Below are positions 6,035-56,721 of a stretch of DNA of 62,130 nucleotides, in pieces. Source of the DNA: Treponema sp. (GTDB lineage Bacteria > Spirochaetota > Spirochaetia > Treponematales > Breznakiellaceae). Every line of letters begins with the position of its first letter. The stretch's first letter is position 1. Position numbers and translations under genes: made by a program. The stretch is taken from contig JAIRUQ010000028.1 in NCBI GenBank assembly GCA_031254315.1, positions 1 through 62,130 on the forward strand, read 5' to 3'. The notes beneath the pieces were generated by a model that searched no databases, was not told the DNA's origin, and worked only from the letters and a program-made list of their open reading frames with translations.

Positions 6035-6238
6035 ATGTCAAAGAAACAGGAATTAGATATACAGATTGCACATGACGGAACTGTAACTATCAATGTATTG
6101 GGCGTAAAAGGAAAATCCTGTCTTGATTTGACGCATGATCTTGAAGAAAGTCTTGGGGCGGTGATGGAGCGTGAAACAAAATCGTCTTTTTATGAGCAGG
6201 AAGATACGGAAGCTGTAAGGATTCGGGGAGAAAACTGA
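6035..6238 (+). CDS. DUF2997 small protein
   Basis: The 67-aa protein fits DUF2997: an alternating beta start (LDIQIAHDGTVTINVLGVKG), then KSCLDLTHDLEESLG, then a charged tail with SFYEQ. In the family as I know it the KGxxCLDxTxxLE segment is the signature, and members sit next to DUF1257 (Ycf35), a Ycf46-like AAA ATPase and a 4Fe-4S single-cluster protein. All three partners are in this window, at 56314, 36366 and 37908, but far apart. The function is unknown. The gene ends by overlapping the next start in ATGA, so it is translationally coupled to the chaperone-like gene. Confidence 0.8.
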   Translation: MSKKQELDIQIAHDGTVTINVLGVKGKSCLDLTHDLEESLGAVMERETKSSFYEQEDTEAVRIRGEN

Positions 6239-6636
6239 TGCAAAATGAGGGAGTGCCCTTTTTTCTTCCTTTGGGACTCTCATGGGAAGGGAAGATTTAT
6301 AGGAAGGGGCATATACGTCTTGCCACAACACTGGATGAATTGGAAATACAGGGCTCAGATGACGTAGGCATGAACACCCGGTACAGAGATATTATGCTTC
6401 TGACGCGTGTTATAGAAGACTTTGATACCTTAAAGCCGGTAACGGTGGATATGATAGAGAACCTTTATGAGGCTGATTTTCTATATCTTCAGTTGCTTTA
6501 TAAGGAGTTGAGCGGTGAAGCCGAAACGCGGATTACTTCTGTCTGCCCACAATGCGGCGCCCGTACGGTGATAAACCTTCCCCGCTTATATGAGGATATG
6601 AGCTTATATAAACAAAAGGAGGAGGGGCAGGAATAA
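6238..6636 (+). CDS. T4-type baseplate hub assembly chaperone-like protein with zinc-ribbon half
   Basis: The 132-aa protein has the composition and layout of phage/eCIS baseplate assembly chaperones: a PFFLPLGLSWEGKIY start, then GHIRLATTLDELEIQ, a helical middle around FLYLQLLYKEL, and a C-terminal CPQCG zinc-knuckle half (SVCPQCGARTVINLP). A second protein of the same general kind, also with a Cys-x-x-Cys ribbon, lies in core block 2 at 57842. The paired occurrence suggests that each core block keeps its own assembly factor. The assignment rests on pattern and position, not on a strong motif. Confidence 0.6.
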   Translation: MQNEGVPFFLPLGLSWEGKIYRKGHIRLATTLDELEIQGSDDVGMNTRYRDIMLLTRVIEDFDTLKPVTVDMIENLYEADFLYLQLLYKELSGEAETRITSVCPQCGARTVINLPRLYEDMSLYKQKEEGQE

Positions 6637-6651
6637 TTCCGCCTTAGCCCT

Positions 6652-7470
6652 ATGGCAGTTACCTTATCAAAAAGAACTGTAAAATCCCGTTATGTAGGTC
6701 TTGATATTTATCGGGCAAGAAAGAAAATAATGCGGGATTTCCCTCAGGTAGATGAAAAGAAGATAGATATCCATTATGTAGAATCGCTGTACCCGCGGTT
6801 TACCGTTCTAAAAAGCGCGTATAACGAGGACAGCGGGCTTATAGAGTTGGAAGCGGCATCGGGCAATCCTTTAAGGCATTTGCCTTCAAATTATCAGGGC
6901 AATGAATTCTTGCGTAGTTTTCTGATGATTTTTCAACATGTCATGAACGATACCACCATAACGTTGGATAATATGCATGAATATTTCAGACCGATGGAAA
7001 GCCCTGCAAATTTTCTTCCGGTTCTTGCCGATTGGCTGGGCATTCACTTAGATACTCTTGGAGGGGAAGACGAAGTCCGGCGTTTTTTACAATACGCTAT
7101 TCCGCTGTACCGTTACCGCGGAACCACTTTAGGTTTGCGTGCGCATTTAACAATAGTCTGCGGGGTTGTTCCTGAGATAACAGAAGGCGTTGCCCCTTAT
7201 TCGGCAATGATGATTGATACGGCTACGGAAACTGAGTCTAGTCTTATGGATTCCGATGACAGCAAGAATTCATTTATTATTCATTTTCCGGTTTTGAGAA
7301 ATAAGTTCCCGGAAACCTTGATACAACGTTTGTCGTTAATCGTACAGCGGGAAAAACCTGTTCATACAAGAGCCTATATAACATTTGAGACTGCAAAAAA
7401 GAAACAGAGGGTCATTACTGTTATTGATACGGATACGGTGATGGGTATGGATGGGGGTATTAACTTTTAA
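6652..7470 (+). CDS. Phage tail protein I-like baseplate protein (TIGR02242 type)
   Basis: The 272-aa protein contains the tail protein I signature: EFLRSFLMIFQHVMND, then an aromatic-rich linker with FRPMESPANFLPVLADWLG, then RRFLQYAIPLYRYRGTTLG leading to LRAHLTIVCGV. The RYRGTxxGLR segment is diagnostic of the eCIS/phage baseplate wedge protein family (Afp12-like neighbourhood). The C-terminus has beta strands ending in VHTRAYITFET. In the particle it should sit at the baseplate periphery. It precedes the 507-aa protein by 13 bases in an uninterrupted operon. Length is normal for the family. Confidence 0.85.
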   Translation: MAVTLSKRTVKSRYVGLDIYRARKKIMRDFPQVDEKKIDIHYVESLYPRFTVLKSAYNEDSGLIELEAASGNPLRHLPSNYQGNEFLRSFLMIFQHVMNDTTITLDNMHEYFRPMESPANFLPVLADWLGIHLDTLGGEDEVRRFLQYAIPLYRYRGTTLGLRAHLTIVCGVVPEITEGVAPYSAMMIDTATETESSLMDSDDSKNSFIIHFPVLRNKFPETLIQRLSLIVQREKPVHTRAYITFETAKKKQRVITVIDTDTVMGMDGGINF

Positions 7471-7483
7471 TAGGGTTTAACTT

Positions 7484-9007
7484 ATGGAAGAGAAACTTGA
7501 AGTCTTTAAAAGAGCCAATTTTTTCCCCGGATTGCAGGTAGGACCTGCTTATTGGAATGAGGTAGAAGACTATCATTTTACCAAAGAGCTTCTTTATAAC
7601 AAATTATTTCATGGGTTTGGAGTGGTCTCCGGTTTTTTGGATTCGCTACAGGTTCAGTCTGAAAAAACCAAAGGAGGGCTTATTACGCTACTTATTGCCC
7701 GCGGAGTTGCTCTGGACGGTTTTGGAAGACCGCTTTTTCTGTACGAACCCCAAGTCATGGTTCTTGATCCCAAGAAATTCAAGCTTCCGGCGACTGTATA
7801 TGTGATTGTAAAATATGAAGAACGTCTGGATGATTATTATCAAAACAAGGATAATCCCGATTTACAGGGGTATCAAAAGAGGTTTGAGACTGTAAAACTG
7901 GATATAGTAACTGAAATCCGTGAGCCGGATATGGAGATTGAGCTTGCCCGTATTCAGCTTGTTGAAGAAAGCGGCGGCGGCATACAGGAAATATTTAATA
8001 ACGATAATTTTACCGATCCCGGTGTCAACGCTCTTGATTACCGTTTTGTCCCGTATGCGTCACGGATGAAAAAAGGCGTCTCAACCTATCTGCTCAAATT
8101 TCTTGTTGAATTATTGGATTATACCCTGACGGTTGCCGCTTCAAGTTACGAAGTGCTTCCCCTGACCTCGTTACGGAACCTGCAGAATTCTGCAATGACA
8201 GCAAAGATGATTGTCCAATGCGCGGGCATTGCTTTTGAAGACGTAATTTACCTTGTTACGCCATTATTTGATTTTGACAATCAAATTCTTTTTGAAATCA
8301 GCGAGTATGAGCGTGAGCATGAGGACAAGGGGCGGATATATACTTCCAAAAACGCCTATGAAATAGCGCGTACCGCAATGTATGAGTTGGGGGATCGCAT
8401 AAAAAGTTATGACAACAGTTATGAAGGCATAGATTTAATTCTAAAATCCCACAGAGCGGTTATAGAGAATCTGAAACAGATACTAATTGCCAACGAAATA
8501 AGCGATGACGACATTAAGTACATCAGTTACTCCATGCCGCACATTCTGCTTTTTGGGGAAGACCGGTACACTTTGGTTGATACCGTCAATCTTGGTTCGA
8601 GGGAATCTGTTGAAAGCCATCAATTTGAACTTTTGGATTGTATCCATCCTTCTACTTCAACTGAAGCGTTCTACTATCCTGATGGAATACTTGTTCGTGA
8701 TACTGTAAAGCGTTGGGTTGGCGGTTCAATGCAGTTTCATCTTCGCAATATAATTAAGGGAAGGAAAACGCTTATTATTCGAAGAACGGATATTTTTCAG
8801 GGCAATTATTCTATTGAAGTCAGCATGGAAGGCACGGAGACAAAAATAATGGATGTTGACGGAATTGATACCAGACAGCGCTGGAGGAATTTATTTGTAA
8901 TCTACGAAGAAGGGGAGATAAAGGACAATACGAGTATTGTCAAATTCAGTATTGGAGAAAAGGGTCGTGATAATTCGGGAAGTATCTGGATATATCAGAT
9001 GCTGTAA
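7484..9007 (+). CDS. Conserved injection-system protein of unknown role (507 aa)
   Basis: The N-terminus FKRANFFPGLQVGPAYWNEV and then LYNKLFHGFGVVSGFLDSLQ is a recognisable conserved opening of proteins that follow tail protein I in eCIS-like loci, though no biochemical role is established to my knowledge. The first ~100 residues resemble a beta-rich domain (ITLLIARGVALDGFGRPLFL). The middle is helical, and the C-terminal 120 residues are beta-rich again. No signal peptide, membrane segment or catalytic motif is visible. The position suggests a baseplate-attached accessory or fibre-adaptor protein. It is followed by the FHA gene 26 bases later. Confidence 0.6.
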   Translation: MEEKLEVFKRANFFPGLQVGPAYWNEVEDYHFTKELLYNKLFHGFGVVSGFLDSLQVQSEKTKGGLITLLIARGVALDGFGRPLFLYEPQVMVLDPKKFKLPATVYVIVKYEERLDDYYQNKDNPDLQGYQKRFETVKLDIVTEIREPDMEIELARIQLVEESGGGIQEIFNNDNFTDPGVNALDYRFVPYASRMKKGVSTYLLKFLVELLDYTLTVAASSYEVLPLTSLRNLQNSAMTAKMIVQCAGIAFEDVIYLVTPLFDFDNQILFEISEYEREHEDKGRIYTSKNAYEIARTAMYELGDRIKSYDNSYEGIDLILKSHRAVIENLKQILIANEISDDDIKYISYSMPHILLFGEDRYTLVDTVNLGSRESVESHQFELLDCIHPSTSTEAFYYPDGILVRDTVKRWVGGSMQFHLRNIIKGRKTLIIRRTDIFQGNYSIEVSMEGTETKIMDVDGIDTRQRWRNLFVIYEEGEIKDNTSIVKFSIGEKGRDNSGSIWIYQML

Positions 9008-9033: not shown

Positions 9034-9402
9034 ATGGGTTTTAAATATTGCGATGAAGGGCACTGGATGGATCCCTCATGGAAGCGCTGTCCGGTATGTC
9101 TTGCGCCTCTTTCAGGCTGGTTGGTACATCTTAAAGAGAATAAGCCTTTTAAGGCATATTCAATACACGAAGGAAAATCTTTTATAGGAAGCGGTGCGGA
9201 TTGTGAAATTAGAATACTGAATATCGATTTAAGCCGACAACACGCATATTTAGTTATTGCCGATGGTATGTGTTCCATAGTGGATATGGGAAACAGCGGC
9301 TCAGCCCTTAAGGTGAACAACATTGATACGGTTAAAACAGCCCTCATTGACGGGGACATTATTGAGTTGGGGAATAGCGCTTTTAAAATAAAATTATTAT
9401 AG
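9034..9402 (+). CDS. FHA-domain protein with N-terminal zinc ribbon
   Basis: Residues 1-25 form a short ribbon (C6, C19, C22 with HWMDPSWKRCPVC). Residues ~45-120 form a forkhead-associated domain: SFIGSGADCEIRI, SRQHAYLVI and a later NSGSALKVNN, with the family Ser-Arg-x-His and Asn-Ser/Gly positions present. FHA domains bind phosphothreonine peptides and commonly regulate secretion machines. The gene sits directly before a vWA membrane protein (9 bases). The W-x-x-CPxC ribbon is echoed at the C-terminus of that neighbour, hinting at a physical pair. No kinase or phosphatase is encoded in the window, so the phospho-partner is unknown. Confidence 0.8.
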   Translation: MGFKYCDEGHWMDPSWKRCPVCLAPLSGWLVHLKENKPFKAYSIHEGKSFIGSGADCEIRILNIDLSRQHAYLVIADGMCSIVDMGNSGSALKVNNIDTVKTALIDGDIIELGNSAFKIKLL

Positions 9403-9411: not shown

Positions 9412-10578
9412 ATGAAAAATTTTTGGAAAAAACAGATATGTATATTTTTCACTTTGTTGTGTTTTGCCGTTCCAATACAAAATACTGCCGCCCAAGATAC
9501 AAAAGCTACTTTAACCGTAAAAATTGACCAGATCGTCTCGAATGATTTTCCCTATATGACCATTTACACGGTGGTTGAAAACAACAGGGGGGAAGTGGTA
9601 ACAGGGCTTTCTCCGGGATTATTCAGCTTCAGGATAGATTCGCTGGAAGAGAGGGGAAAAACATCGATAATTCCTTTTTCAATGAGGGAAGCGCCCATAG
9701 ATTACACCATCATCTTTTCCAATAACGGAATTATGGAAGGCGAGCCGCTGGATTTCCAAAAAAACGCCATTTTACAATTCATTGAGACAATGAAAGAAAC
9801 GGATCGTCTGTCGTTGTACACCATAGGGGAAGAAGCAAGTGTTGTTTTTGAGGAACTCAGGAAAGACGCTATTGATCCTTCGGTAATAAACGCGGTAGAC
9901 GTTACTTCTGTCCAGCCGAGGGTATACGATTCCATTATCAACGTTATGCGTAAGGTTCAGCGGAGGAATCTTGAACGGAAAATTGTAATCATCATATCTG
10001 ACGGACGGGATCAAAACAGCCGTTTTACAAAGGAACAGCTTAATACGGTTCTAAAAGAAGTTGAAGCGCCGGTTTATGCTTTAGGGATCAGAGTGCTCAA
10101 TACCCAGAGCTTAAGCAACTTAAATGAAATGGCGGAATTAACCGGCGGAACCTATCTGTATACTTCAAGGCTTTCCGATATTCCCGGTAATCTTAAAACT
10201 TTGTACGGTAAAATTACCCAGCCGTACGTCATCAATATTAAAGTGAAGAGTCTTAAGGCGGACGACCTTCACCATGTATTTGAAGTTTCTATAAATGAAC
10301 GGGATGCTTCAGGTAAAGGTCAAAAAACATTTGTCGCGGTAAAAGTTCCTGTTCCCCGGTGGGTAAGGTGGGTGATAGTAGCTGTGATACTGGTAGTAAT
10401 TGCCGCCTTGATTGTGTTTTATATAATACATAAAACAATAAAACGAAAGCGTATGGGAATAACCAAAAGGCGATGCCCTGAGTGTCATAACCGTATGAAA
10501 GATACATGGGACACATGCCCATTCTGCCGGTATATGCCGGATATCAAGAAAAAAAAGAAGCGGAAAAAAGATGGCTAA
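9412..10578 (+). CDS. Membrane-anchored vWA-domain protein with C-terminal zinc ribbon
   Basis: Order of parts: signal peptide (residues 1-27, KKQICIFFTLLCFAVPI), a beta-rich N-domain, a von Willebrand A domain at about 95-265 (VIIISDGRDQNS at ~192-203), one transmembrane helix at ~317-339, then a basic cytoplasmic tail with a ribbon C355/C358/C369/C372. The vWA fold is outside the cytoplasm and the ribbon inside. The first metal motif, normally DxSxS, reads IFSNNG, so the MIDAS site is degenerate. Such a protein is not a standard particle component. It suggests the system touches the inner membrane. It overlaps the sheath start by 8 bases, so it is translationally coupled to it. Confidence 0.8.
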   Translation: MKNFWKKQICIFFTLLCFAVPIQNTAAQDTKATLTVKIDQIVSNDFPYMTIYTVVENNRGEVVTGLSPGLFSFRIDSLEERGKTSIIPFSMREAPIDYTIIFSNNGIMEGEPLDFQKNAILQFIETMKETDRLSLYTIGEEASVVFEELRKDAIDPSVINAVDVTSVQPRVYDSIINVMRKVQRRNLERKIVIIISDGRDQNSRFTKEQLNTVLKEVEAPVYALGIRVLNTQSLSNLNEMAELTGGTYLYTSRLSDIPGNLKTLYGKITQPYVINIKVKSLKADDLHHVFEVSINERDASGKGQKTFVAVKVPVPRWVRWVIVAVILVVIAALIVFYIIHKTIKRKRMGITKRRCPECHNRMKDTWDTCPFCRYMPDIKKKKKRKKDG

Positions 10579-12316
10579 TATGCAGATACCGGGAATTTAT
10601 GTAAGTCCTCAGGAATACAGGCTTAATCCGCTACAAATCGACAAGAGGTGTGTGGCGGGTTTTGTGGGTATTGCCGAACGAGGACCTTTACACACGCCGG
10701 TAACTGTTTCAAGTTTTGACGAGTATATAAAAACATTTGGTTTATTTGATACTGCCGGTAATCTTCCGTTTTCGGTGTACAGTTTTTTTAAGTGCGGCGG
10801 AGCGGAATGCGTAATAGTACGGGTGGCGAATGAAAAGTGTGCGAAGCAGGCTCAGTTACAGATAAAGTGTAGCGGGGGCGGAAAGGTTTTGTTTGAAGCA
10901 TCGTCCAAAGGTTCTTGGGGAAATTATATTTCCGCCCATGTTTGGCACGAAAGTGATGAAATTGCCAAAGCAAGCGAAGTTGACGCTACGGATGGAAATT
11001 GGATAGCAAGCGATGAAGAAGATATAGCGGTCAATGATGTTTTGCAAATATCCCTTATGGGGCAAAAAGTTATTAGAGATGTTATTAAAAAAGACGGAAA
11101 CAAATTATTTTTTGACAAGCCGTTAAAGCTGTTGGGAAAGATCGAAAATCCCGCGCAGAATATAAAACTGGAAAAAGCCTATGTATCAGTATCGCTTTCC
11201 TGCAAAGACAGCCATGAGAATTTCTTGCATCTTTCCATGAACCCGTCATCAGAGCGGTATTTTGTTTCCTATATTAACGGACGATCCCGGCTCTGTACGG
11301 TACGCGCAAATGACGTACACGGTATTATTAAGCCAGTATATTCGGCGCTTGCTTCGGACGGCAGGGACGGCATTGCCGAAATGACCGCAGGGGATTTTAT
11401 CGGGCATTATAACGGACCGAACCAATTTCGCGGGCTTGGTGCGCTGGAAAGCAGAGACGACATTTCTCTTATTTCCGTTCCCGATGCGGCGTGGCTTTAT
11501 TCCCAGTCAGGGGCAAGCGATGCCGAACGGGAAAAAGCAGTGTTTGCGGTACACGGGGCGATGGTAACCCAAGCGGAACGTTTTCCCGGACGCTTTGCGG
11601 TATTAGATGTGCCTAACGGTCTTGACGGGATAAAAATTCTTTCTTGGGCGAAGCGTTTTGACAGTTCCTGCGCCGCGGCGTATTTCCCGCATATTGACAT
11701 AGTAGACCCCATGGATTCGACAGGAGCGAAAACCGTCCGTATTCCGCCTTCCGGGGCAATATGCGGTTCCATTGCGGTAACGGACAGCGAAAAAGGCATT
11801 TTCCATGCGCCGGCAAATACCCTTCTGAACGGCGCGGTCGCTCTGGCTAACCGGATCGAAGATTCCGAGTACGAGATGCTATACCCTGCGGGCGTTAATC
11901 TGCTAAAATATTTCCCAGGGAGGGGGATAAAAATCTGGGGGGCTAGAACTTTATCATCCGATCCGAATTGGCGGTATATCAACGTGCGGCGTACTTTTTC
12001 TTCAATTTGCCGCAGTCTAAAGATTGGAACACAATGGGCGGTATTTGAACCGAATGATAAAAAATTATGGAAGCGGGTCGTCCGTCAGGTTTCGGGGTTT
12101 CTCCTTGACCTGTGGATGCAGGGATATTTGGCTGGGAGTACCGCAGAGCAGGGATTTTATGTCCGTTGCGACGAGGAACTTAACCCGCCTGAGAATGTTG
12201 ACCAGGGGATTTTGACGTTTTCCGTGGGGCTTGCGATAACAAAGCCGACGGAATTTTTTCAAATTGCAATCACCGCGGAAAAAGACGGCGCGAGTGTATA
12301 TATTAAAGAGGATTGA
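10571..12316 (+). CDS. Contractile sheath protein, long form (581 aa)
   Basis: The N-terminus QIPGIYVSPQEYRLNPLQI followed by VAGFVGIAERGPLHTPVTV is the tail-sheath opening. The C-terminal third has the conserved sheath core: GRGIKIWGARTLSSDPNWRY, INVRRTFSSICRSL, WAVFEPNDKKLWKRV, FYVRCDEELNPPENVDQG. Between them is a ~200-residue insertion that the short sheath at 52932 lacks, probably a surface-exposed domain. Having one long and one short sheath is normal in eCIS, where the sheath near the baseplate differs from the bulk sheath. Which is which cannot be read from sequence. Confidence 0.95.
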   Translation: MANMQIPGIYVSPQEYRLNPLQIDKRCVAGFVGIAERGPLHTPVTVSSFDEYIKTFGLFDTAGNLPFSVYSFFKCGGAECVIVRVANEKCAKQAQLQIKCSGGGKVLFEASSKGSWGNYISAHVWHESDEIAKASEVDATDGNWIASDEEDIAVNDVLQISLMGQKVIRDVIKKDGNKLFFDKPLKLLGKIENPAQNIKLEKAYVSVSLSCKDSHENFLHLSMNPSSERYFVSYINGRSRLCTVRANDVHGIIKPVYSALASDGRDGIAEMTAGDFIGHYNGPNQFRGLGALESRDDISLISVPDAAWLYSQSGASDAEREKAVFAVHGAMVTQAERFPGRFAVLDVPNGLDGIKILSWAKRFDSSCAAAYFPHIDIVDPMDSTGAKTVRIPPSGAICGSIAVTDSEKGIFHAPANTLLNGAVALANRIEDSEYEMLYPAGVNLLKYFPGRGIKIWGARTLSSDPNWRYINVRRTFSSICRSLKIGTQWAVFEPNDKKLWKRVVRQVSGFLLDLWMQGYLAGSTAEQGFYVRCDEELNPPENVDQGILTFSVGLAITKPTEFFQIAITAEKDGASVYIKED

Positions 12317-12327
12317 GGAGGCAAACC

Positions 12328-12768
12328 ATGTCGGATGAACACAAACTTTCATCGTATTTGTTTTCGGTTGAAATCGACGGGATAGAGACCGCACGGTTTC
12401 AAAAATGCGAAGGACTTGAGGCGGAGACGTATGTCTACGAGATAGAAGAAGGAGGTTACAACACTTCGACTCATAAATTTTACGGGCGTACCCGGTATCC
12501 AAACCTGATATTGGAGAAAGGAATATCGGATAATAACGCCCTGTTTGACTGGTACAAGGAAACTGTATTGGAAGATCGCAAGATCGAGCGGAAGAACGGC
12601 TCTGTCATTCTCAAAGACACGGAGAATAACGAAGTGAAACGCTGGAATTTCTTCCGGGCGTTTCCATGCCGATGGATAGGACCGAGGCTGGAAACAAACT
12701 TAGGAAGCGACTATGCGCTTGAGCGTATAGAAATAGCCCATGAAGGGATCGTATTAGACAGTAACTAA
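12328..12768 (+). CDS. Inner tube protein 1 (gp19 type)
   Basis: I start at ATG 12328 (MSDEHKLSSYLFSVEI), which has GAGGAGG nine bases upstream and avoids overlapping the sheath. The 146-aa product has the tube-protein beta-barrel layout: FSVEIDGIETARFQKCEGLE, EGGYNTSTHKFYGRTRYPNL, then WYKETVLEDRKIERKNGSVI and WNFFRAFPCRWIGPRL. Hexameric rings of this protein stack to form the injected tube. It differs considerably from tube 2 at 54173 and is closer to the variant that lies next to LysM and hub genes, so it is likely the tube-initiator ring at the baseplate. Confidence 0.93.
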   Translation: MSDEHKLSSYLFSVEIDGIETARFQKCEGLEAETYVYEIEEGGYNTSTHKFYGRTRYPNLILEKGISDNNALFDWYKETVLEDRKIERKNGSVILKDTENNEVKRWNFFRAFPCRWIGPRLETNLGSDYALERIEIAHEGIVLDSN

Positions 12769-12778: not shown

Positions 12779-13399
12779 ATGGCATTGGAAAAAGCGATAA
12801 TAAGCAACATAGACACCGGAGAGGACATAGAGGTATTGTTCAACCCAAAAGAATACGTGATAGAAAAGAAGACACCGTGGACAGAGATGCAGGTATTCGG
12901 GCTTGACTCGCCCCCCGTACAGTTTACGATGGGCGAGAGGAAACGTTTGACGATGGAGCTGTTTTTCGACACCTCCGAGGAAAAGACAGACGTGCGCGAG
13001 CACACGGGAAAGATGGAAGAGCTTATGCTTGTAAACGCGCAGGAACACCGCCCGCCCGTGTTAAGATTCTCGTGGGGAAACTTAAGTTTCGACTGCGTAC
13101 TTGAAGACTTAGTGCAGAGGTACACGCTGTTCCGCGACGACGGCACACCTTTAAGGGCGATATTGAAAACGGTATTCAAGGAATACGCGACGGCGGCGAC
13201 GCAGTTGTCAACGACTAGAAGGGAGTCTGCTGATCACACCAAGCGGCTGGTGGTCAGGGAAGGGGAAAGCATATCGTCGATAGCGGCGAGGGAATACAAC
13301 GATCCCGGCAAATGGCGTGTGATAGCGCAGGCTAACGGGATAGAAGATCCAGAGAACATAAAGCCCGGCTCCCTTGTGGAACTGCCGCCATTGTATTAA
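12779..13399 (+). CDS. LysM-containing baseplate/tube-hub connector (Afp7/gp53-like)
   Basis: The 206-aa protein begins with a compact domain (EVLFNPKEYVIEKKTPWTE) known from eCIS tube-baseplate connectors and ends with a LysM repeat (VREGESISSIAAREYNDPGK through PGSLVELPPLY). LysM often binds glycan chains. In this family it is thought to be structural, at the baseplate centre. It lies between tube 1 and hub with normal spacing (10 and 12 bases). Its last ~25 codons recur as a relic at 27971-28045, and more faintly at 1391, showing that this junction has been copied around the locus. Confidence 0.88.
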   Translation: MALEKAIISNIDTGEDIEVLFNPKEYVIEKKTPWTEMQVFGLDSPPVQFTMGERKRLTMELFFDTSEEKTDVREHTGKMEELMLVNAQEHRPPVLRFSWGNLSFDCVLEDLVQRYTLFRDDGTPLRAILKTVFKEYATAATQLSTTRRESADHTKRLVVREGESISSIAAREYNDPGKWRVIAQANGIEDPENIKPGSLVELPPLY

Positions 13400-13411: not shown

Positions 13412-14461
13412 ATGAGCGAAAACAAACATTTAACGCCGGTATGGATAATCTACGCCGACGGCAGACGGCTGGACACGGATCACGAAGGAGCGCTTCGCAG
13501 TATAACGGTAACCGACAAACTAAACGGGGCGTCCGATTTCTCAATAATCTTTGACACGACGGAAGTGAAAGTGAGGGAGAAGGGAGTTTTGTCGTTCGGG
13601 AGCGAGGTGTCGATACACATGGGGTATAAAGACGACGTAGAGGAAGTGTTCTGCGGAGAAGTTTTGAGCTTTCGCGGGACATACGCCGAAGGAAAAAGCG
13701 AGCAGTTGGAAGTAAGCGGAAGCAACGCATTGCACAAATTGCATCACGGCTCACATTTCCGCGGATATGAAAACAAAGCGCCCTCCGAAGTGATACAGGG
13801 GCTTCTGGACAGCCATTCGCTTAAGGGCGAGGTAGACGAGTTCGGAACGCCGAGAGAGTTTCACTCGGAAGAGAACCAAAGCGACTACGAGTACCTGATG
13901 GAACAGGCTAAGGCTTACGGGAAACAGGTATACGCATACGGCACGACGGTATACGTGAAAGACGAAGTGGCTGTAAGCAACGACGAGATAATCTACGAAT
14001 GGGGAAAGAGCCTTAAAAAATTCGAAGCCGGGCAGGACATAAGTAATCTGATAAGCGGAGTAGATTACATCGGCTGGGATCACGAAAAAAACGAATCATT
14101 TACAGGGAAAGCGGGCTTGGAAGATTTACCCGTAAAGATAGGCGGGGACAGCGACTGGAGCAAGGTCAGCAAAGGAGCGGGAGAAAACTACGCTGAGGCG
14201 CAGGTAGACATGAACTGCAAGGACACCGAGGAAGCGAAACAGTTGGCATTGGGAAGACTGCAACAGAACTCGTACGGGTTTTATCACGCGCAAGGAAGCG
14301 GAGAAGGCAACTACAAGCTGAAAGCGGGGATGCGTGTAACGATAAAGATGACCGGCGAAGGATTTGAAGGTGAGTATATGGCTGACACGGTAACGCACAA
14401 GCTGGACAGACAAGAGGGCTACAGCACGCATTTCAGCCTGAAACGGAATATGACGGCGTAA
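13412..14461 (+). CDS. Baseplate hub protein (gpD/gp27 type), core copy
   Basis: The 349-aa hub matches the late-control D family: PVWIIYADGRRLDTDHEGAL, HMGYKDDVEEVFCGEV, KAPSEVIQGLLDSHS and a C-terminus with GSGEGNYKLKAGMRVTIKMT and FSLKRNM. It is the trimeric connector between tube and spike. The ribosome binding site GGCGGAG lies 7 bases upstream. In VgrG-type arrangements a spike gene should follow; here only the last ~90 bases of a spike gene remain (14466-14562) before the M23 gene, so the cassette-specific spike was deleted and this hub must pair with the spike at 5378 or with the cassette spikes. Confidence 0.92.
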   Translation: MSENKHLTPVWIIYADGRRLDTDHEGALRSITVTDKLNGASDFSIIFDTTEVKVREKGVLSFGSEVSIHMGYKDDVEEVFCGEVLSFRGTYAEGKSEQLEVSGSNALHKLHHGSHFRGYENKAPSEVIQGLLDSHSLKGEVDEFGTPREFHSEENQSDYEYLMEQAKAYGKQVYAYGTTVYVKDEVAVSNDEIIYEWGKSLKKFEAGQDISNLISGVDYIGWDHEKNESFTGKAGLEDLPVKIGGDSDWSKVSKGAGENYAEAQVDMNCKDTEEAKQLALGRLQQNSYGFYHAQGSGEGNYKLKAGMRVTIKMTGEGFEGEYMADTVTHKLDRQEGYSTHFSLKRNMTA

Positions 14462-22990: not shown

Positions 22991-23046
22991 AAATATGGAA
23001 CAAAGATAATGTTATAATATTAGGTATTAAGGAGATATGTTAGATA

Positions 23047-27855: not shown

Positions 27856-27970
27856 TGGGGCGCCCAAAAAACCAGAAGAGGAGCTAGGGGGAACCGAAAA
27901 AACAATAAAAACGCCCCACATAATATATGTGTTTCCCTTCATAAATATAAAAATCTAACTTATGCAAAAC

Positions 27971-34046: not shown

Positions 34047-34094
34047 TAATCTTTCACTTTTAATTCTATATGCCGATAATACTAGTATAATACC

Positions 34095-37907: not shown

Positions 37908-38507
37908 GTGAGAATACACCGAACGCTTGCTGTATCGCGGGCTAACGGACCAGGCATCAGGTTTGTGCTGTGGGTTCAGGGGTGTTCCCGCAGGTGTCCC
38001 GATTGCTTTAATCCTAACACTCATGATCCAAACGGCGGCTATGAAACAGCAGTTTCAGAAATAATCAAACAGATAACATTGAATGAAGTTGAGGGCATTA
38101 CGGTGTCAGGCGGGGAGCCTTTTGAACAGGCGGAAGAACTGCTGGCATTGCTGGAAGAAACCGGCAAGATCGGACTGCATCGGTTAGTATACACCGGATA
38201 TACCTGTGAGACGCTACAATCGCGGGAATGTTGTGTAACCCGAAAATGCCTTGCGGAAATAGATATGCTTATTGACGGAGCTTATGAAAAAGATTTACCG
38301 CCGTATATGCCATGGACAGGTTCGGGGAACCAGAGGGTGATACAATTAGAGGGCGGAAAGATACGGAAGATTTACGAAAAAAACGAAATTGACCCTGCCG
38401 CAAACGCCGGTGGTGAGATAGTAATTGACCGAAACGGCGGTATCTTGGCGACCGGAATAATTGATAGTAGAATTTTTTCAGAAACTAAAGTTTCCGAACA
38501 ACTCTAA
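37908..38507 (+). CDS. 4Fe-4S single-cluster / NrdG-like radical SAM protein
   Basis: GTG start at 37908 behind GAGGGAAAAG. The 199-aa protein carries C26-x3-C30-x2-C33 (QGCSRRCPDCFNP), the radical-SAM cluster motif, followed by ITVSGGEPFEQAEELLALLE, the GGEP glycine motif that binds SAM, and VYTGYTCETL. Length and layout match NrdG-type activases, but no anaerobic ribonucleotide reductase is present. In other genomes as I recall, such short proteins sit beside Ycf46-like ATPases, DUF2997 and DUF1257. It may modify a particle component or the ATPase. A relic of its last codons lies in front of core block 2 (48866). Confidence 0.85.
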   Translation: MRIHRTLAVSRANGPGIRFVLWVQGCSRRCPDCFNPNTHDPNGGYETAVSEIIKQITLNEVEGITVSGGEPFEQAEELLALLEETGKIGLHRLVYTGYTCETLQSRECCVTRKCLAEIDMLIDGAYEKDLPPYMPWTGSGNQRVIQLEGGKIRKIYEKNEIDPAANAGGEIVIDRNGGILATGIIDSRIFSETKVSEQL

Positions 38508-40809: not shown

Positions 40810-40818
40810 GGGGGGGAA

Positions 40819-44863: not shown

Positions 44864-44877
44864 GGAGGATATATTTT

Positions 44878-48915: not shown

Positions 48916-49335
48916 ATGAGCCGGAATATACTCGGTAAAGGTTGGGCGTTTCCCATTTCTCCCGATGTCAAAGGAAATATTAAATTTTCTCAATATGAAA
49001 AGAGTATAGAGGAATCCATCAGGATAATCCTGAATACTACCCCAGGTGAGCGGTTAATGCATCCTGATTTTGGGTGTATGATTAATGAGATGGTATTTGC
49101 CCCTAACCGTCCACAGTCCATTACCCAGGCGGAACACTATGTGCGTGAAGCGATAATACGGTGGGAGCCTAGGGTAATCTTGAAGGAAGTCAGAGGCGAC
49201 CCTGATCCTGACAATGAGACGGTGGTTAATATTAAAATCCATTATGAGGTACGGTCGGTTAATACATTTTTTAACATGGTGTACCCATTTTATTTAGAGC
49301 GAGGCGAAATTGATTCCAAAAAGCAACTTGGATGA
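48916..49335 (+). CDS. Baseplate wedge protein gp25/gpW type
   Basis: The 139-aa protein matches the GPW/gp25 family: GKGWAFPISPDVKGNIKFSQ, then SIRIILNTTPGERLMHPDFG, where GERxMxPxFG is the family signature. The later part alternates beta strands (VVNIKIHYEVRSVNTFFNMV). In contractile particles it nucleates sheath polymerisation at the baseplate. It opens core block 2 and overlaps the next gene by 26 bases. Length is typical. Confidence 0.95.
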   Translation: MSRNILGKGWAFPISPDVKGNIKFSQYEKSIEESIRIILNTTPGERLMHPDFGCMINEMVFAPNRPQSITQAEHYVREAIIRWEPRVILKEVRGDPDPDNETVVNIKIHYEVRSVNTFFNMVYPFYLERGEIDSKKQLG

Positions 49336-52318
49336 CCGGACTTTTGACGATATAGTCGCTGAGGCTATTCGTTTAATTCCCCGGTACTGTCCTGATTGGA
49401 CCAACCATAACACGACCGATCCCGGTATTACTCTGGTAGAGTTATTTGCATGGATGACGGAAATGACTTTATACCGTCTTAATCAAGTTCCGGAAAAGAT
49501 ATATATGTCGCTTCTTGAACTCATGGGGCTTTCCCTAATTCCTCCCCAAAGCGCACGGGCGGTTATCCGCTTTTTCCCGGTAGAAGGCTACAAAAAGTCA
49601 ATCATGGTTAAGGGCGGAACTCAGATAGCGGCTATTGTCGGGAATGACGATGCCCGTATATTTGAAACCGAGCAGGATGTTTCCGTCAATAACGCGAGGC
49701 TTGAAGCCTGCATAAACCGCACAGGTGAAAAATGGATCGATTATTGCGAGAACAGTGAACTAAAGCAGTTCAAGCTTTTTGAAACAGGTAACTATGTTGA
49801 ACATAATCTTTACCTTGTTTCGCCTTCTTTTGCCTATCTTGATTCGGAACACACGATACAGATTTCTTTTGTTACGGGAACGGAAATTACATCGGTAAAA
49901 GATGAACTTATCAATTTTCTCTATTGGGAGTATTGGGATGGGCGTTCATGGATACATATCTCCCCTCAAAGGGCATTTGAGAAAAAACGGAAGAAAGACA
50001 ATGTTATTTACTTTTCAGGACCGATCCCTATTGAGGCTTGTTCTGTAAACGGCAAGGAAGGTTTTTATCTACGTGCGTCGTTGTCGCGTGTACCGGAACG
50101 TCAAAGCGCCTTACAGATACAGGATATTGAACTTCAAACCCATTTTGGAGGTTCCGGTTTTATGCCTGATTTGTGTGTAACGAATCCGGGACAGCAATAT
50201 CTGCCGGTTGATATAAACAACACCTTCAGAATTTTTTCGGAAAATCCGTCTTATAACGAAGCTTTTTATCTTGCCGCCGACAATGTTTTTTCCCGTCCGG
50301 GCAATAAAGTAACTCTTGTTTTTACTTTTAGCGAAATTTATGTGACTGGAAATGAAAATGAGGACGTACGGTTTTCCTATGAATATTGGGATGGGGACGG
50401 TTGGAAAAAACTTGGTGAAAGCCCTCGCTCTGCTTCTGAGGCAAATCCACACGGGTTTAAGGACGGAACATTTGCCTTCAAGCAATCAGGAGAAGTTCAG
50501 TTTACCGTTCCCAAGGGTTTTATGCCGGTCATTGTCAATAACGAGGAGCATTATTGGCTGAGGATACGGCTTGTTACCAAAGATTTTTCTCTCGGCGGAA
50601 ATTATGTCCAAAATGAAGGCGGTAATTGGATATGGCAATTTTATTCAAAAGTACATTCGCCGCTGTTTAGCAAAATACGGATAACTTATAATATGGGTGT
50701 TCAGCGTCCTCTTGAGTTGTTTTCTCATAGCAATTTTATCTGGAATGACCTTGGTCCTGTTCTTAGGGAACACGAAGGAGAGGATGAGAAAACAAGTTTT
50801 GCTATTTTTGATATTTTTCAGGATGTATTGCCCGCATTATACTTGGGTTTTTCCGCTCCCTTTTCAAAAGGGAACGCCTCAATTTATGTAAAGATAAATG
50901 ACGATCGTTCTCCAAGACCCAAGGCGGAGCGGTTTTCTTTTTTTAATGTCGGCTTACTGCCTCGACCTTCCGAAAAACGCCTGATCGATTTGCTTTGGGA
51001 GTATTGGGACGGAGAAAAATGGTCGGAGTTATCTGTCAATGATTATTCCGATTCGTTTCATGAATCAGGGTTTATAGAATTTGTAACCCCTGCGGACATG
51101 ACAGTAAAGAATGAATTTTCAAAAAACCTCTATTGGCTTCGTTTGCGGCTTTTATCGGGCGGTTTTGAGACCCAGCCGGCGATAATGGCTATTTTCAGCA
51201 ATGCGGTTTACGCTAGGAATAAAACCAGTTATCAGAATGAAATAGCTGGTTCAGGGACAGGCGCTCCTGCCCAGACTGTTTCGCCTGCCCACGGACCTAT
51301 CTTGCCCGGCATAGAGGTTTATGTTGATGAAGGATCAATTCCTCCGTCCAACGAACTGGATATGATGACAGCCGAAGGAATAAAAGAACCTTATCAGATA
51401 GACGGCGAATCTGTTTGGGTTCGTTATAAAGAGGTTGATAATTTTTACAGTTCAACGCCGTTTTCCCGGCATTTTGTAGTGGATTACAGGGAACAAAGAA
51501 TCCATTTTGGAGATGGTCAGAGGGGTATTAATCCGCCCCGGCGTAAGTTTAATATCCGCATCGGATCATACGGTACCGGCGGAGGGGCGGCAGGCAATGT
51601 GGCGGCAGGAACCCTGCGGACGCTTACTCAAAGTATTGCTTTTATAGCCGGTTGTGATAATCCTTTTCCCGCCGAGGGTGGCGCGGACATGGAGACTGTA
51701 AATAATCTTAAATCCAGAGCGGCAGGAGTATTTAAAAGCCTCCAAAGGGCGGTTACCGCCGAAGATTTTCATTGGCTTTCACGGGAAGCGTCCGCATCTG
51801 TTGGCAGGGCATGGTGTCTGAAAGATAAGAATAAACAGGGAGAAATTGTCATAATTATTATTCCGGTAATACCGTCAGGTGAAACTGTAGCCTTTAAATT
51901 GATTCCTTCACGGGAATTATTACGTAGGGTTACCTCATATCTGGATGAAAGGAAACTGGTTGGAACGAAAATCCGTGTACAAGGACCTGTTTACCGTAGT
52001 TTTAGCGTCAGGCTAACGTTGGTATTTCGCAGTGATATATTGGATATTGAACGCTTGAAAAAGACAATAGAGACCACTTTGCGCTCTTTTTGCCACGCCC
52101 TAACCGGTGGGGATGGCTCAGGATGGGAATTCGGAAAAACCGTTACCACAGGCGCGGTTTTAAAGCAGTTAGAAAAAGTTCAAGGAATCCTTTCTGTTGA
52201 TGAAGTCCGGCTTTACGATGTGGATACCGGAATAACTGTGGAAAAACTGGTTGTCAAAAACGATGAAATCCCTTATTTGGATGAGGTGCAAATTGAAAAC
52301 CGGAGAGTGGCAGAGTGA
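49310..52318 (+). CDS. Baseplate assembly protein J-like (gp6 type, 1002 aa)
   Basis: TTG start at 49310 within the gp25 gene, behind GCGAGG. The N-terminus RTFDDIVAEAIRLIPRYCPD and then TTDPGITLVELFAWMTEMTL is the opening of large eCIS baseplate J proteins (TIGR02243). The middle contains several repeats of the EYWDGxxWxxL kind (YWEYWDGRSWIHI, YEYWDGDGWKKLGE, WEYWDGEKWSEL), and the C-terminal part has the J core: FGDGQRGINPPRRKFNIRIG, YGTGGGAAGNVAAGTL, AVTAEDFHWLSREASASVGR. Dimers of this protein form the baseplate wedge ring. Full length, no interruption. Confidence 0.95.
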   Translation: MIPKSNLDDRTFDDIVAEAIRLIPRYCPDWTNHNTTDPGITLVELFAWMTEMTLYRLNQVPEKIYMSLLELMGLSLIPPQSARAVIRFFPVEGYKKSIMVKGGTQIAAIVGNDDARIFETEQDVSVNNARLEACINRTGEKWIDYCENSELKQFKLFETGNYVEHNLYLVSPSFAYLDSEHTIQISFVTGTEITSVKDELINFLYWEYWDGRSWIHISPQRAFEKKRKKDNVIYFSGPIPIEACSVNGKEGFYLRASLSRVPERQSALQIQDIELQTHFGGSGFMPDLCVTNPGQQYLPVDINNTFRIFSENPSYNEAFYLAADNVFSRPGNKVTLVFTFSEIYVTGNENEDVRFSYEYWDGDGWKKLGESPRSASEANPHGFKDGTFAFKQSGEVQFTVPKGFMPVIVNNEEHYWLRIRLVTKDFSLGGNYVQNEGGNWIWQFYSKVHSPLFSKIRITYNMGVQRPLELFSHSNFIWNDLGPVLREHEGEDEKTSFAIFDIFQDVLPALYLGFSAPFSKGNASIYVKINDDRSPRPKAERFSFFNVGLLPRPSEKRLIDLLWEYWDGEKWSELSVNDYSDSFHESGFIEFVTPADMTVKNEFSKNLYWLRLRLLSGGFETQPAIMAIFSNAVYARNKTSYQNEIAGSGTGAPAQTVSPAHGPILPGIEVYVDEGSIPPSNELDMMTAEGIKEPYQIDGESVWVRYKEVDNFYSSTPFSRHFVVDYREQRIHFGDGQRGINPPRRKFNIRIGSYGTGGGAAGNVAAGTLRTLTQSIAFIAGCDNPFPAEGGADMETVNNLKSRAAGVFKSLQRAVTAEDFHWLSREASASVGRAWCLKDKNKQGEIVIIIIPVIPSGETVAFKLIPSRELLRRVTSYLDERKLVGTKIRVQGPVYRSFSVRLTLVFRSDILDIERLKKTIETTLRSFCHALTGGDGSGWEFGKTVTTGAVLKQLEKVQGILSVDEVRLYDVDTGITVEKLVVKNDEIPYLDEVQIENRRVAE

Positions 52319-52931: not shown

Positions 52932-54140
52932 ATGAAAATGCCAAATTATCAAACGCCAGGCGTTTATGTTGAAGAAGTTGAAAGCGGTTCAAAACCCATT
53001 GAAGCGGGATCCACCAATATTGTGGGTTTCCTTGGCGTAGCTGAAAAAGGTCCGGTTAATGAAGCAGTATTGGTAACAAACTGGACTCAATATACAAAAA
53101 TATTCGGCGGTATGCACACTGAAGGCTGGTTAGGGCATGGTGTTTATCAGTTTTTTCAAAACGGCGGAACAAAAGCATATATCAACAACTTGAAAGAGCT
53201 CCCTCAGAAACCGGAAAAGGACGAGAAAGCTGAAAAAGCGGACGAAACTTTAAAAGAACCTGTGAAGATTGAAAACCCCAAAGATATTGCAAAGCTTATT
53301 ATTGGCAATGATGAAGGAGTGGGTAAAAAATCGGGGCTTTATCTATTTGATACGGTTCCTGAAATTGCATTGGTCTGCGCTCCAGGTGTAACTGAGCCTG
53401 CGGCTCAAGACGCTATTCTAACCCACTGTGAAAAAAACCGCTTTCGTTTTGCGATACTTGATTCCCCTGAAGAATTGGAAAAGGGTATTGATACGATGCC
53501 CATGCCGCGAGATTCTATTATGGGCGCATATTACTTTCCTTGGATCGAAATGTATGATACGGCGGCGGATCAAAATGTATATGCCCCGCCGTCCGGAGGC
53601 ATGGCAGGTGTGTACAGCAGGGTTGATTCTACTCGCGGTGTGCATAAAGCGCCGGCTAACGAGATTTTTAGAACAGCTTTAGGTCTAAAGTACGGTCTGA
53701 CTGATGCGGAGCAGGAACTTTTAAATCCTAAAGGAATAAATTGTATACGTGAATTTGCGGGGAGGGGTATTCGTGTTTGGGGCGCCCGAACCATAAGCTC
53801 CAATCCCGAATGGCGCTATATAAATGTCCGGCGCTTGTTTTGCATGGTTGAGCAAGCCATACAGAACGGGACTAACTGGGTTGTTTTTGAACCTAACACA
53901 AGAGATTTATGGAAAAAAATAACCAGAAACATTACCTCTTTTTTGTTGAATATTTGGCGTGGCGGCGCTTTGTTTGGCGACACGCCGGAAGAAGCTTTTT
54001 ATGTACGGTGCGATGATGAACTAAATCCACCGGAGAGTATTGATGCCGGGTATGTGGTGGTAGAATTGGGAATTGCCCCGGCAAAACCAGCGGAATTCGT
54101 AGTCTTTAGGGTCTCTCAAAAGACCTTGGGCGAAGAATAA
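52932..54140 (+). CDS. Contractile sheath protein, short form (402 aa)
   Basis: Opens YQTPGVYVEEVESGSKPIEA, then TNIVGFLGVAEKGPVNEAV, and closes with the sheath core FAGRGIRVWGARTISSNPEW, YINVRRLFCMVEQAI, WVVFEPNTRDLWKKI and FYVRCDDELNPPESIDAG. A Lys/Glu-rich linker (KDEKAEKADETLKEPVKIEN) replaces the long insertion of sheath 1. Compact and likely the bulk sheath subunit forming most of the contractile cylinder. GGTAGGGGG precedes the start. It is followed by tube 2 after 32 bases, as expected. Confidence 0.95.
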   Translation: MKMPNYQTPGVYVEEVESGSKPIEAGSTNIVGFLGVAEKGPVNEAVLVTNWTQYTKIFGGMHTEGWLGHGVYQFFQNGGTKAYINNLKELPQKPEKDEKAEKADETLKEPVKIENPKDIAKLIIGNDEGVGKKSGLYLFDTVPEIALVCAPGVTEPAAQDAILTHCEKNRFRFAILDSPEELEKGIDTMPMPRDSIMGAYYFPWIEMYDTAADQNVYAPPSGGMAGVYSRVDSTRGVHKAPANEIFRTALGLKYGLTDAEQELLNPKGINCIREFAGRGIRVWGARTISSNPEWRYINVRRLFCMVEQAIQNGTNWVVFEPNTRDLWKKITRNITSFLLNIWRGGALFGDTPEEAFYVRCDDELNPPESIDAGYVVVELGIAPAKPAEFVVFRVSQKTLGEE

Positions 54141-54172: not shown

Positions 54173-54601
54173 ATGGCAGATTATACCCCGACTACCAAAA
54201 CGTATTTTAAGGTTGAGGTTGATGGCGTCGATTTTGGAAACTTTGTATCGGTTTCCGGTCTTGGCGCGAACGCCGAGGTTTCCGATGACATGGGTGGTAT
54301 GGATAAAACCCCTCGTAAAGTTGTTGGAAAAGTAAAGTATGATACGATAAAATTGGTTCGTAATGCTGACCCTCGTGACAAGGTGCTCAAAGAGTGGTGG
54401 AAAACCGTTGAGCGGGGCAATCCGGAACAAAAATCCGTATCTATAGTTTTTATGGATCGATCCGGTGTTTCTGAAATGCAACGCCGGAACTTGTTCAATG
54501 CGGTTCCTTGCGGATGGACTATCTCTGATTTGAGTAGTACTGATAATGGCGTTATTACCGAGACTATTTCATTGGTTTACGAAAACGCCGAGTGGGCATA
54601 A
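54173..54601 (+). CDS. Inner tube protein 2 (gp19 type)
   Basis: The 142-aa protein begins TYFKVEVDGVDFGNFVSVSG, then MDKTPRKVVGKVKYDTIKLV, LKEWWKTVERGN and closes with NLFNAVPCGWTISDLSSTDN, TETISLVYENAEWA, the tube beta-barrel layout of phage gp19/Hcp-like proteins. It is next to the short sheath, so it is probably the main tube subunit. The ribosome binding site is AAGGAGTGATGT. It differs considerably from tube 1 at 12328. Confidence 0.95.
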   Translation: MADYTPTTKTYFKVEVDGVDFGNFVSVSGLGANAEVSDDMGGMDKTPRKVVGKVKYDTIKLVRNADPRDKVLKEWWKTVERGNPEQKSVSIVFMDRSGVSEMQRRNLFNAVPCGWTISDLSSTDNGVITETISLVYENAEWA

Positions 54602-55872: not shown

Positions 55873-56297
55873 TACGAATTCGAAGTATCATAATCATATC
55901 GGCATTTCTTTTAATGATTTTTTCATGCAAAACCTCAAATGATCAGCTTGTTTTGCAGGAGATAACACCTATTCCCCGATCGGTTGCCCGTCAGGTTGTT
56001 ACAGAGTATGAACCTGTATATTCGACTTTGCGGATAATTGAAGTTTCCGAGGTAAACGGAGTTCAAAAATATTTCTTGGTTAGGCTGGGAACAGACAGGA
56101 CCGGTATCAGTGTAGGAGTTACAGGTGAGATTGGCGAGGATGCAACATTTCAGCGTGTTATTGGTAGTTTTAAGATTATTGAACTGCATAGTGGTTTCTT
56201 TAGATGTGAAGTAACGGAACTGGCGTATCGTATTGGAGCTAACGCTCATGCGAGGGTGCAAATCGGGGAAAAAGTAAAAGACGCATCCTCTCCGTAA
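55869..56297 (+). CDS. Lipoprotein (142 aa)
   Basis: I start at ATG 55869, whose ATGA overlaps the upstream stop. The signal sequence SIIIISAFLLMIFSC ends in a spirochaete-style lipobox with Cys ~21 (IFSC|KTSND), so the protein should be lipid-anchored. The mature part is beta-rich (RIIEVSEVNGVQKYFLVRLG, FRCEVTELAYRIGANAHARV) and resembles a small OB/SH3-like barrel. It likely works with the preceding exported protein. Its role in an injection locus is unknown; anchoring or releasing particles at the envelope is one possibility. Confidence 0.7.
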   Translation: MIRIRSIIIISAFLLMIFSCKTSNDQLVLQEITPIPRSVARQVVTEYEPVYSTLRIIEVSEVNGVQKYFLVRLGTDRTGISVGVTGEIGEDATFQRVIGSFKIIELHSGFFRCEVTELAYRIGANAHARVQIGEKVKDASSP

Positions 56298-56313
56298 GAT
56301 ATAAGGAGTTTTC

Positions 56314-56721
56314 ATGTCCCATATAGCAAAGATTGATACAAAAATCAAGGATTTGGCATATCTAAAAAAGGCATTGGAGACCCTTAATATTCAATTTGTG
56401 GAAGCCAAGGAAGGGGAAACGCTGACTCTGAAAGGATACGGAAAAAACGAGGTGATTACCGGCTGTATAATGGAAATAAAGACCGGAAGTTCATACAGTA
56501 TCGGTATACGAAAAAAAGAAAAAGGGTATGAAGTTGCCGCCGACTGGTGGGCAATAGAAACATTTACCGGGCAAAAACAGGAAGATATAATGAACAGGAT
56601 AACAAAGCAATATGCTTACGAAACTATTATGGACAAAATTAAAGGCATGGGCTACAGCGTTATTCAAGAAGAGCAGGATGTCAAAGAAAACCTGCGCATT
56701 ACTGTTAGACGATGGGATTAA
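56314..56721 (+). CDS. DUF1257 / Ycf35-like protein
   Basis: The 135-aa protein opens SHIAKIDTKIKDLAYLKKAL, then LTLKGYGKNEVITGCIMEIK, SYSIGIRKKEKGYEVAADWW, and ends TRITKQYAYETIM-like, LRITVRRWD. The MSHxxxIxTxIKDxxxLxxAL start, the central GY and the ADWW segment are the DUF1257/Ycf35 signature. In the usual neighbourhood as I recall, it accompanies DUF2997, a Ycf46-like ATPase and a 4Fe-4S protein, all present here but 19-50 kb away. Full length, with AAGGAG ribosome binding site. Biochemical role unknown. Confidence 0.85.
   Translation: MSHIAKIDTKIKDLAYLKKALETLNIQFVEAKEGETLTLKGYGKNEVITGCIMEIKTGSSYSIGIRKKEKGYEVAADWWAIETFTGQKQEDIMNRITKQYAYETIMDKIKGMGYSVIQEEQDVKENLRITVRRWD

Follow-up and report, generated by a model that had tools for sequence, protein, structure and literature searches.

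Why does the gene cluster of a spirochaete extracellular contractile injection system (eCIS) carry a Ycf46-like ATPase and three companions, and which ATPase serves the particle? The question is raised by a Treponema sp. contig (JAIRUQ010000028.1, assembly GCA_031254315.1), analysed whole and called here the window, whose 62,130 bases belong to a draft genome of 3.10 Mb in 127 contigs. Four of its genes, encoding a Ycf46-like AAA+ ATPase, an NrdG-like radical S-adenosylmethionine (SAM) protein, a DUF2997 protein and a DUF1257 (Ycf35-type) protein, are complete, Pfam-supported open frames in one eCIS locus, as an earlier note on this DNA had described. The explanation favoured here, with modest confidence, is that a spirochaete eCIS subtype recruited these four genes as a module and uses it in place of the Afp15/Pvc15 ATPase.

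The module in spirochaete eCIS loci

Pfam detected spike, Tail_P2_I, FHA, VWA, CIS_tube/LysM, hub, gp25 and baseplate J genes around the module, along with two sheaths and two tubes. Sheath, tube, CIS_tube, gp25, baseplate J and spike together in one locus identify it as an eCIS. No head (capsid or DNA-packaging) genes turned up in the Pfam scan of 30 window proteins, which left some open reading frames of the window aside and was not a dedicated search. All four module families share the locus, here as in relatives, and bear their signature residues: Walker A in the second AAA domain (D2) of the ATPase, GxxGxxC in DUF2997 and CX3CX2C in the radical SAM protein. The name Ycf46, absent as such from the libraries used, is one we take to apply to the ATPase, which matches phrog_8638 over residues 8-499 of 510 (2.4e-147) and is 41-46% identical to three homologues from outside eCIS (alignment A2). 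Ycf46, DUF1257 and DUF2997 each have one match in the whole window genome.

The earlier note had each of the four genes in a different part of the locus. They are indeed spread across it, but occupy three places, because the Ycf46 and radical SAM genes are only 9 bp apart. Its other placements agree with ours: DUF2997 sits between the spike and a tail-assembly-chaperone-like gene, and DUF1257 follows sheath 2 and tube 2 on their 3' side. Relatives show a tighter arrangement. For example, Alkalispirochaeta (G499), G477 and G512 share the order hub, radical SAM, Ycf46, DUF2997, chaperone-like, pentapeptide, with one unmatched frame separating hub and radical SAM in G499 and G477. The Ycf46 gene of G419 also adjoins DUF2997, and its radical SAM gene lies beside gp25 on another contig. 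Because radical SAM, Ycf46 and DUF2997 are contiguous in G499, G477 and G512, the scatter in the window is probably secondary and not ancestral.

The module recurs in this eCIS lineage, as the note had supposed. Of 13 spirochaete genomes examined with an eCIS of this type, 10 have the complete set of four there (G000, which is the window genome, G238, G055, G028, G154, G221, G499, G477, G512 and G419), and two further four-gene loci (L037, L038) were read as stretches only. On Treponema succinifaciens plasmid pTRESU01 the annotation places DUF1257 (8218), a 4Fe-4S protein (61913), an AAA protein (62644) and DUF2997 (84866) in one eCIS region. DUF2997, hub, radical SAM and Ycf46 genes stand together on a second contig of Treponema lecithinolyticum, while the Breznakiella locus is chromosomal and retains the module genes. 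Away from its plasmid eCIS, the T. succinifaciens chromosome (G055, 268620-277078, L034) also carries several extra tube genes and a partial second CIS_tube.

A scan of 84,980 species with the eCIS DUF1257 alignment as query returned 16 loci: 15 from spirochaetes, including T. lecithinolyticum, Breznakiella homolactica and Alkalispirochaeta alkalica, and one from Sericytochromatia, where DUF1257 was the sole window protein matched. eCIS genes surround DUF1257 in all 15 spirochaete loci. The fetched stretches held all four genes in three of these (L037, L038, L045) and all except DUF2997 in two (L049, L050), where they end within or just after Ycf46; the remaining 10 have DUF1257 with or without DUF2997, many stretches ending before the expected place of the other module genes.

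Across 241 genomes of the order, DUF1257 occurs in eight, always at loci with eCIS genes, and CIS_tube in six, every one of which has DUF1257 (Fisher, 1.1e-10). DUF2997 was likewise found in eight, the same six CIS_tube genomes among them. The 392 genomes of the phylum divide into 7 with both CIS_tube and DUF1257, 2 with CIS_tube only, 3 with DUF1257 only and 380 with neither (Fisher, 1.6e-11), though these tables assume that equal settings drew equal genomes (counts and labels agree) and the genomes are phylogenetically non-independent. CIS_tube alone marks G291, whose eCIS pieces lie at contig ends, and G411, which has a more distant eCIS; DUF1257 alone marks G024, G419 (eCIS split over two contigs) and G303. 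The last is probably a free-standing module: it carries Ycf46, a radical SAM gene, a DUF2997-like frame that the Pfam model did not detect and, at a contig end, a weakly matching DUF1257 fragment (1.5e-4), with no window-type eCIS gene on the module contig and no sheath match genome-wide. The association that the note proposed to look for holds within order and phylum, but not eCIS-wide: among 60 plasmid records with a CIS_tube protein, only one is among the three records with DUF1257. Weaker DUF2997 matches above the cut-off at G111:C348 and C324 and at G044:C586, in genomes of the order without a CIS_tube match, are possibly further free-standing modules.

A candidate ATPase for the particle

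Geller 2021 names AAA as the core 'ATP supply' of eCIS. According to an excerpt of PMC11495950, Pvc15 has N, D1 and D2 domains, each required for payload loading, with D2 as the sole bioactive ATPase. The probe used for this ATPase was one Roseomonas eCIS protein, assigned to the Afp15 type by its locus position, which has a 53% match in an eCIS stretch of Paenibacillus cellulosilyticus.

The window ATPase matches this probe over 55-116 residues of the C-terminal AAA domain, and full-length Afp15/Pvc15 homology including the N domain was not found. The search for an Afp15-type protein covered eight of the ten complete module genomes (all except G477 and G419), and none of the eight gave a full-length match; their best match was 3.9e-19, and all were confined to the C-terminal AAA region. 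For the window this extends to the whole genome; the earlier note had named an Afp15-type ATPase just outside the window as something that would refute its reading. G411, a spirochaete whose eCIS lacks the module, gave two matches of 1.6e-76 (residues 86-680) and 2.5e-70 (C-terminal part). One copy lies inside an eCIS locus (contig C10) and the other (C20) beside a gene called DUF4157-type on the strength of a match between window 61237-61995 and annotated DUF4157 proteins. The CIS_tube-bearing locus of G411 (C9) had no Afp15-type match in the 40 kb fetched. That Ycf46 takes the slot of Afp15 is therefore borne out as a vacancy, though not as a position.

The architecture of the protein points the same way. 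A Walker A pattern is present in the second half of 96 of 96 Ycf46 homologues and in the first half of none (0/96), and the first half aligns to the second (hhalign E 4e-6, probability 87). This tandem of a degenerate first and a Walker-intact second AAA half appears, from sequence, to agree with the Pvc15 layout.

Origin and possible roles of the module

The four families also form one neighbourhood outside eCIS, as the earlier note had stated for other bacteria. Ycf46 matches occur in 668 plasmid and 56 phage records, ten of which were examined. Paenibacillus polymyxa plasmid pPPM1a has AAA, DUF1257, DUF2997 and 4Fe-4S genes in a row, and Paenarthrobacter has AAA, hypothetical, DUF2997, hypothetical and 4Fe-4S. 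Plasmids of Planktothrix, Bacillus paralicheniformis and Manganitrophus combine AAA, DUF1257 and DUF2997, Geminocystis has DUF1257, DUF2997 and AAA, and a Pseudanabaena plasmid (L082) runs GrpE, Hsp70, DUF1257, AAA_21/SMC-type ATPase, hypothetical, DUF2997, Ycf46-like, WD40. The Calditerrivibrio plasmid, satellite phage Javan368 and phage Catdawg carry the AAA gene without an annotated partner.

A survey of viral loci kept 80 of 194 matching loci, some of them near-copies, using profiles from our own alignments (E <= 0.01). DUF1257, DUF2997 or both lie near Ycf46 in 37 of the 80, and Ycf46 stands alone in 43. A radical SAM gene joins 15 of the 37, and all four families are present in 13 of the 80. 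The module's phage neighbours include ParB, DUF3150, a RecA-like protein and a spanin, while DnaB helicase is mostly beside Ycf46 alone (20 of 23 viral loci). In one group (L107, L108, L110, L111, L120) a ThiF/E1-like protein (8.2e-22 in L110) is encoded upstream of the module genes, and some members add a JAB match that is weak and below cut-off (0.015 in L120); this group may represent a phage ubiquitin-like pathway. In cyanophage P-SSM2 (L052, 3802-4381), a DUF2997-like gene overlaps a DUF1257 gene near DNA polymerase gp43, both annotated as hypothetical.

In a tree of 96 Ycf46 proteins, made by a quick method with many long branches elsewhere and a root for drawing only, all 12 eCIS copies fall on one side of a single branch (support 100), with copies from phages and plasmids around them. 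Pairwise distances between module proteins track those of the eCIS core, taken as the mean over five structural proteins (Mantel r over 11 loci: Ycf46 0.96, DUF1257 0.97, radical SAM 0.86; DUF2997 0.95 over 10 loci; p 1e-4 each), which shows co-inheritance, not interaction. One eCIS clade of Ycf46 that diverges in step with the structural genes points to one recruitment followed by co-inheritance; the spirochaete eCIS subtype probably acquired the phage- or plasmid-borne four-gene module once.

Several observations weigh against use of the module in place of Afp15/Pvc15. The vacancy test used a single Roseomonas protein typed by locus position. Neither Ycf46 nor Afp15 was matched in the plasmid eCIS stretches of Nostoc and Haloferax or in the CIS_tube-bearing locus of G411, and an ATPase therefore need not lie beside an eCIS. 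Phage and plasmid copies adjoin ParB, RecA-like and DUF3150 genes and not recognised tail genes, which suggests that the original job of the module was probably not tail assembly. Ycf46 alone is also wider than eCIS, with 26 of 392 phylum genomes at E 1e-80, seven of them with CIS_tube. Three genomes are incomplete: G024 and G157 have DUF1257 with part of an eCIS, no Ycf46, DUF2997 or CIS_tube, and radical SAM matches on other contigs, and G291, outside the DUF1257 matches of the phylum scan, lacks DUF2997, Ycf46 and radical SAM. The eCIS locus runs off contig ends in all three (in G024 a contig end cuts it), and these gaps are assumed to reflect broken assembly although G024 is rated 99% complete. 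Lastly, the link shown between module and particle is one of genes, and any physical or functional link between them is putative.

Nevertheless, gene content, descent and sequence architecture lead us to infer a mechanism in which Ycf46 would do the job of Afp15/Pvc15. A Ycf46 ring would use its second AAA domain to remodel a cargo or particle subunit for loading or assembly, and DUF1257 and DUF2997 may be its adaptor or cofactor proteins. The substrate of the radical SAM enzyme would be a module protein and not bulk sheath or tube; the invariant Gly/Cys segment of DUF2997 is the likeliest site.

Among the partner proteins, residues G15, G26 and C29 of DUF2997 are invariant in 31/31 and 14/14 aligned copies (sets that partly overlap), and a model of moderate confidence places C29 near a helix start, after two strands. 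No clear structural relative was found for the DUF1257 model, for which a helix-grip, KA1 or Bcs1-middle-like fold is a possibility. Glycyl-radical proteins are marked by a conserved radical Gly-Tyr motif; DUF1257 was considered as such a protein and rejected, the motif being G-W in G499, G512, G419 and L051 and absent in P-SSM2. All 8 aligned copies of the radical SAM protein keep its GGEP and the cysteines of the cluster, one plasmid copy having an insert between the second cysteine pair. Its match to NCBIfam NrdG (2.1e-33) reaches 115.4 bits against a curated equivalog cut-off of 126.1, and it was not accepted as NrdG proper. The window genome has a second, distinct NrdG-like gene elsewhere (G000:C32), which makes a plain ribonucleotide-reductase role for the module enzyme less likely, and no NrdD-like family appeared among the Pfam matches of the 30 window proteins scanned. 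A bolder version, which we regard as a long shot, would make DUF2997 a small carrier: the radical SAM enzyme would alter its invariant Gly/Cys segment, and DUF2997 in this form, paired with DUF1257, would license the Ycf46 ring to handle its clients. If true, phages, plasmids, cyanobacteria and spirochaete eCIS would share one unfoldase controlled by radical chemistry, with the eCIS version loading or maturing the particle.

Other roles for the module have to be considered. Ycf46 and its small partners could act as a chaperone for baseplate or sheath assembly or quality control and not in cargo loading. DUF2997 adjoins the tail-assembly-chaperone-like gene, DUF1257 adjoins Tail_P2_I in several relatives, and GrpE and Hsp70 accompany the cyanobacterial (Pseudanabaena) plasmid copy. 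The VWA gene of the window locus also recalls the MoxR-vWA chaperone pair proposed, in an excerpt of PMC7824862, for jumbo-phage virion assembly. However, other eCIS have similar structural genes without the module, and we consider this role unlikely, if worth keeping in mind.

The module may also have kept a phage or plasmid function, in DNA or nucleotide handling or in conflict with other elements, and merely be co-inherited with the eCIS. ParB and RecA-like genes among its phage neighbours would fit this, as would the plasmid-borne eCIS of T. succinifaciens. Yet structural genes lie between the module genes, which the chromosomal Breznakiella locus has also retained, and within the order DUF1257 is found only at eCIS loci and DUF2997 mostly in eCIS genomes (6/8). 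Passive carriage seems rather improbable. Most doubtful is a reading along the lines of the earlier note, in which the radical SAM enzyme modifies spike, sheath or tube and Ycf46 delivers the substrate to it: the intact CX3CX2C and GGEP motifs and the separate NrdG-like gene would suit it, but on plasmids and phage contigs that showed no eCIS gene, comparable radical SAM proteins go with Ycf46 and DUF2997, in most cases with DUF1257 too, which makes a module member the likelier substrate.

The locus and its place among known systems

The features of the locus are collected below. The chaperone-like protein beside DUF2997 also matches a Nostoc eCIS gene annotated 'phage tail assembly protein'.

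Table 1. Module genes and eCIS features of the window
Feature	Coordinates	Strand	Evidence
eCIS spike (Phage_base_V), directly upstream of DUF2997	5378..6025	+	Pfam 3e-14
DUF2997 protein, invariant G15/G26/C29	6035..6238	+	Pfam 1.8e-15
Tail-assembly-chaperone-like protein, adjoins DUF2997 wherever both seen in relatives	6238..6636	+	phrog_508 1.5e-5; synteny
Tail_P2_I baseplate protein	6652..7470	+	Pfam 1.1e-8
Large conserved eCIS protein, weak CIS13-family match	7484..9007	+	NCBIfam CIS13_fam 6.9e-7, far below cut-off; kept in relatives
FHA-domain protein	9034..9402	+	Pfam 1.3e-7
VWA-domain protein	9412..10578	+	Pfam VWA_3 5.7e-8
Sheath 1	10571..12316	+	Pfam 2.1e-13
Tube 1	12313..12768	+	Phage_T4_gp19 2.3e-34
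CIS_tube/LysM protein	12779..13399	+	PF19266 3.4e-35
Hub (Phage_GPD); radical SAM and Ycf46 genes come next in most relatives	13412..14461	+	Pfam 3.6e-8; synteny
Ycf46-like AAA+ ATPase, degenerate first AAA-like half, Walker-intact second AAA domain	36366..37898	+	Pfam AAA 4e-30 and lid
NrdG-like radical SAM protein (CX3CX2C, GGEP)	37908..38507	+	Fer4_12 2.5e-32; Radical_SAM 1.6e-5, below its cut-off
gp25 baseplate	48916..49335	+	Pfam 1.6e-26
Baseplate J	49310..52318	+	Pfam 4.8e-17
Sheath 2	52932..54140	+	Pfam 6e-16
Tube 2	54173..54601	+	Phage_T4_gp19 4.5e-24
DUF1257 (Ycf35-type) protein	56314..56721	+	Pfam 6.4e-14; model pLDDT 91
Pentapeptide-repeat protein and two small genes; after DUF2997/chaperone-like pair in several relatives	56734..58213	+	Pentapeptide_4 9.9e-10; synteny

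Between the eCIS parts, at 31066-35943, lie a ThsA-like SIR2 protein (PADLOC 1.2e-22) and a PDC-M30A/B pair (2.3e-106, 1.3e-119), which look like candidate anti-phage genes inserted in the locus. The regions 20786-28375 and 38607-46005 are alike. Both contain a spike/PAAR protein, a membrane-tailed protein and a peptidase of M23 type (assigned by eye for 24607-26604), and they form repeated cargo-like units; there is also a short hub-like frame at 28058-28375.

Ycf46, DUF1257 and DUF2997 are spread over cyanobacteria, plastids, plasmids and phages, and a Synechocystis study reportedly connects ycf46 to CO2 uptake. A particle gene cluster with a recurring module offers a concrete assay for all four proteins (is the particle made, is cargo loaded?), and proteins that have long been mysterious thereby gain a testable job in spirochaete injection machines. 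A further suggestion from this cluster is that one loading ATPase can stand in for another in eCIS, which bears on how these machines take up protein cargo. The papers listed for Ycf46 and Ycf35 are, judged by title, mostly on plastid genomes, and in the literature consulted, passages of PMC5940233 included, no biochemical function was found for Ycf46, DUF1257 (Ycf35) or DUF2997.

The eCIS is of a known kind and the module of a partly known one (the cyanobacterial DUF2997-ycf35-fed7 cluster, in an excerpt of PMC4284462), while the literature searched, supplementary tables aside, yielded no account of the two combined as a subtype. No paper among the matches listed joins eCIS with Ycf46, DUF1257 or DUF2997, though supplementary tables, outside the search, may list the association, and none on DUF1257 and DUF2997 concerned eCIS, judged by title. 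The search on spirochaete or Treponema eCIS brought up only a review of CRISPR clinical trials and gave nothing to the point; nor did that on contractile injection and radical SAM among the matches listed, where both occurred only in a Geobacter transcriptome paper. No paper among those listed for T. succinifaciens and tail terms names the species. The main text of Geller 2021 mentions neither Spirochaet nor Treponema, and that of two other eCIS surveys neither these nor ATPase, supplementary tables again lying outside the search.

Four known systems resemble parts of the locus. The radical SAM protein is like NrdG activases in its profile match across the whole NrdG model, its Fer4_12 domain and a conserved G-S-x-N-Q, a motif we take to be common to NrdG; it differs in falling below the curated NrdG cut-off and in having no NrdD-like family among the 30 scanned window proteins. 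The cyanobacterial DUF2997-ycf35-fed7 cluster, as excerpted from PMC4284462, likewise places DUF2997 next to DUF1257 and an iron-sulphur protein, but there a ferredoxin replaces the radical SAM enzyme and eCIS is absent. Free-standing clusters of Ycf46, DUF1257, DUF2997 and 4Fe-4S genes (pPPM1a, phage contigs) have the same four families with the same conserved residues and no eCIS genes seen around them, whereas the window copies are interleaved with the particle locus. Finally, eCIS with an Afp15/Pvc15 ATPase share the sheath, tube, CIS_tube/LysM, gp25, baseplate J, spike and Tail_P2_I genes and a tandem-AAA ATPase in the locus; the window differs in that its ATPase is of Ycf46 type and is accompanied by three extra module genes and by FHA and VWA genes.

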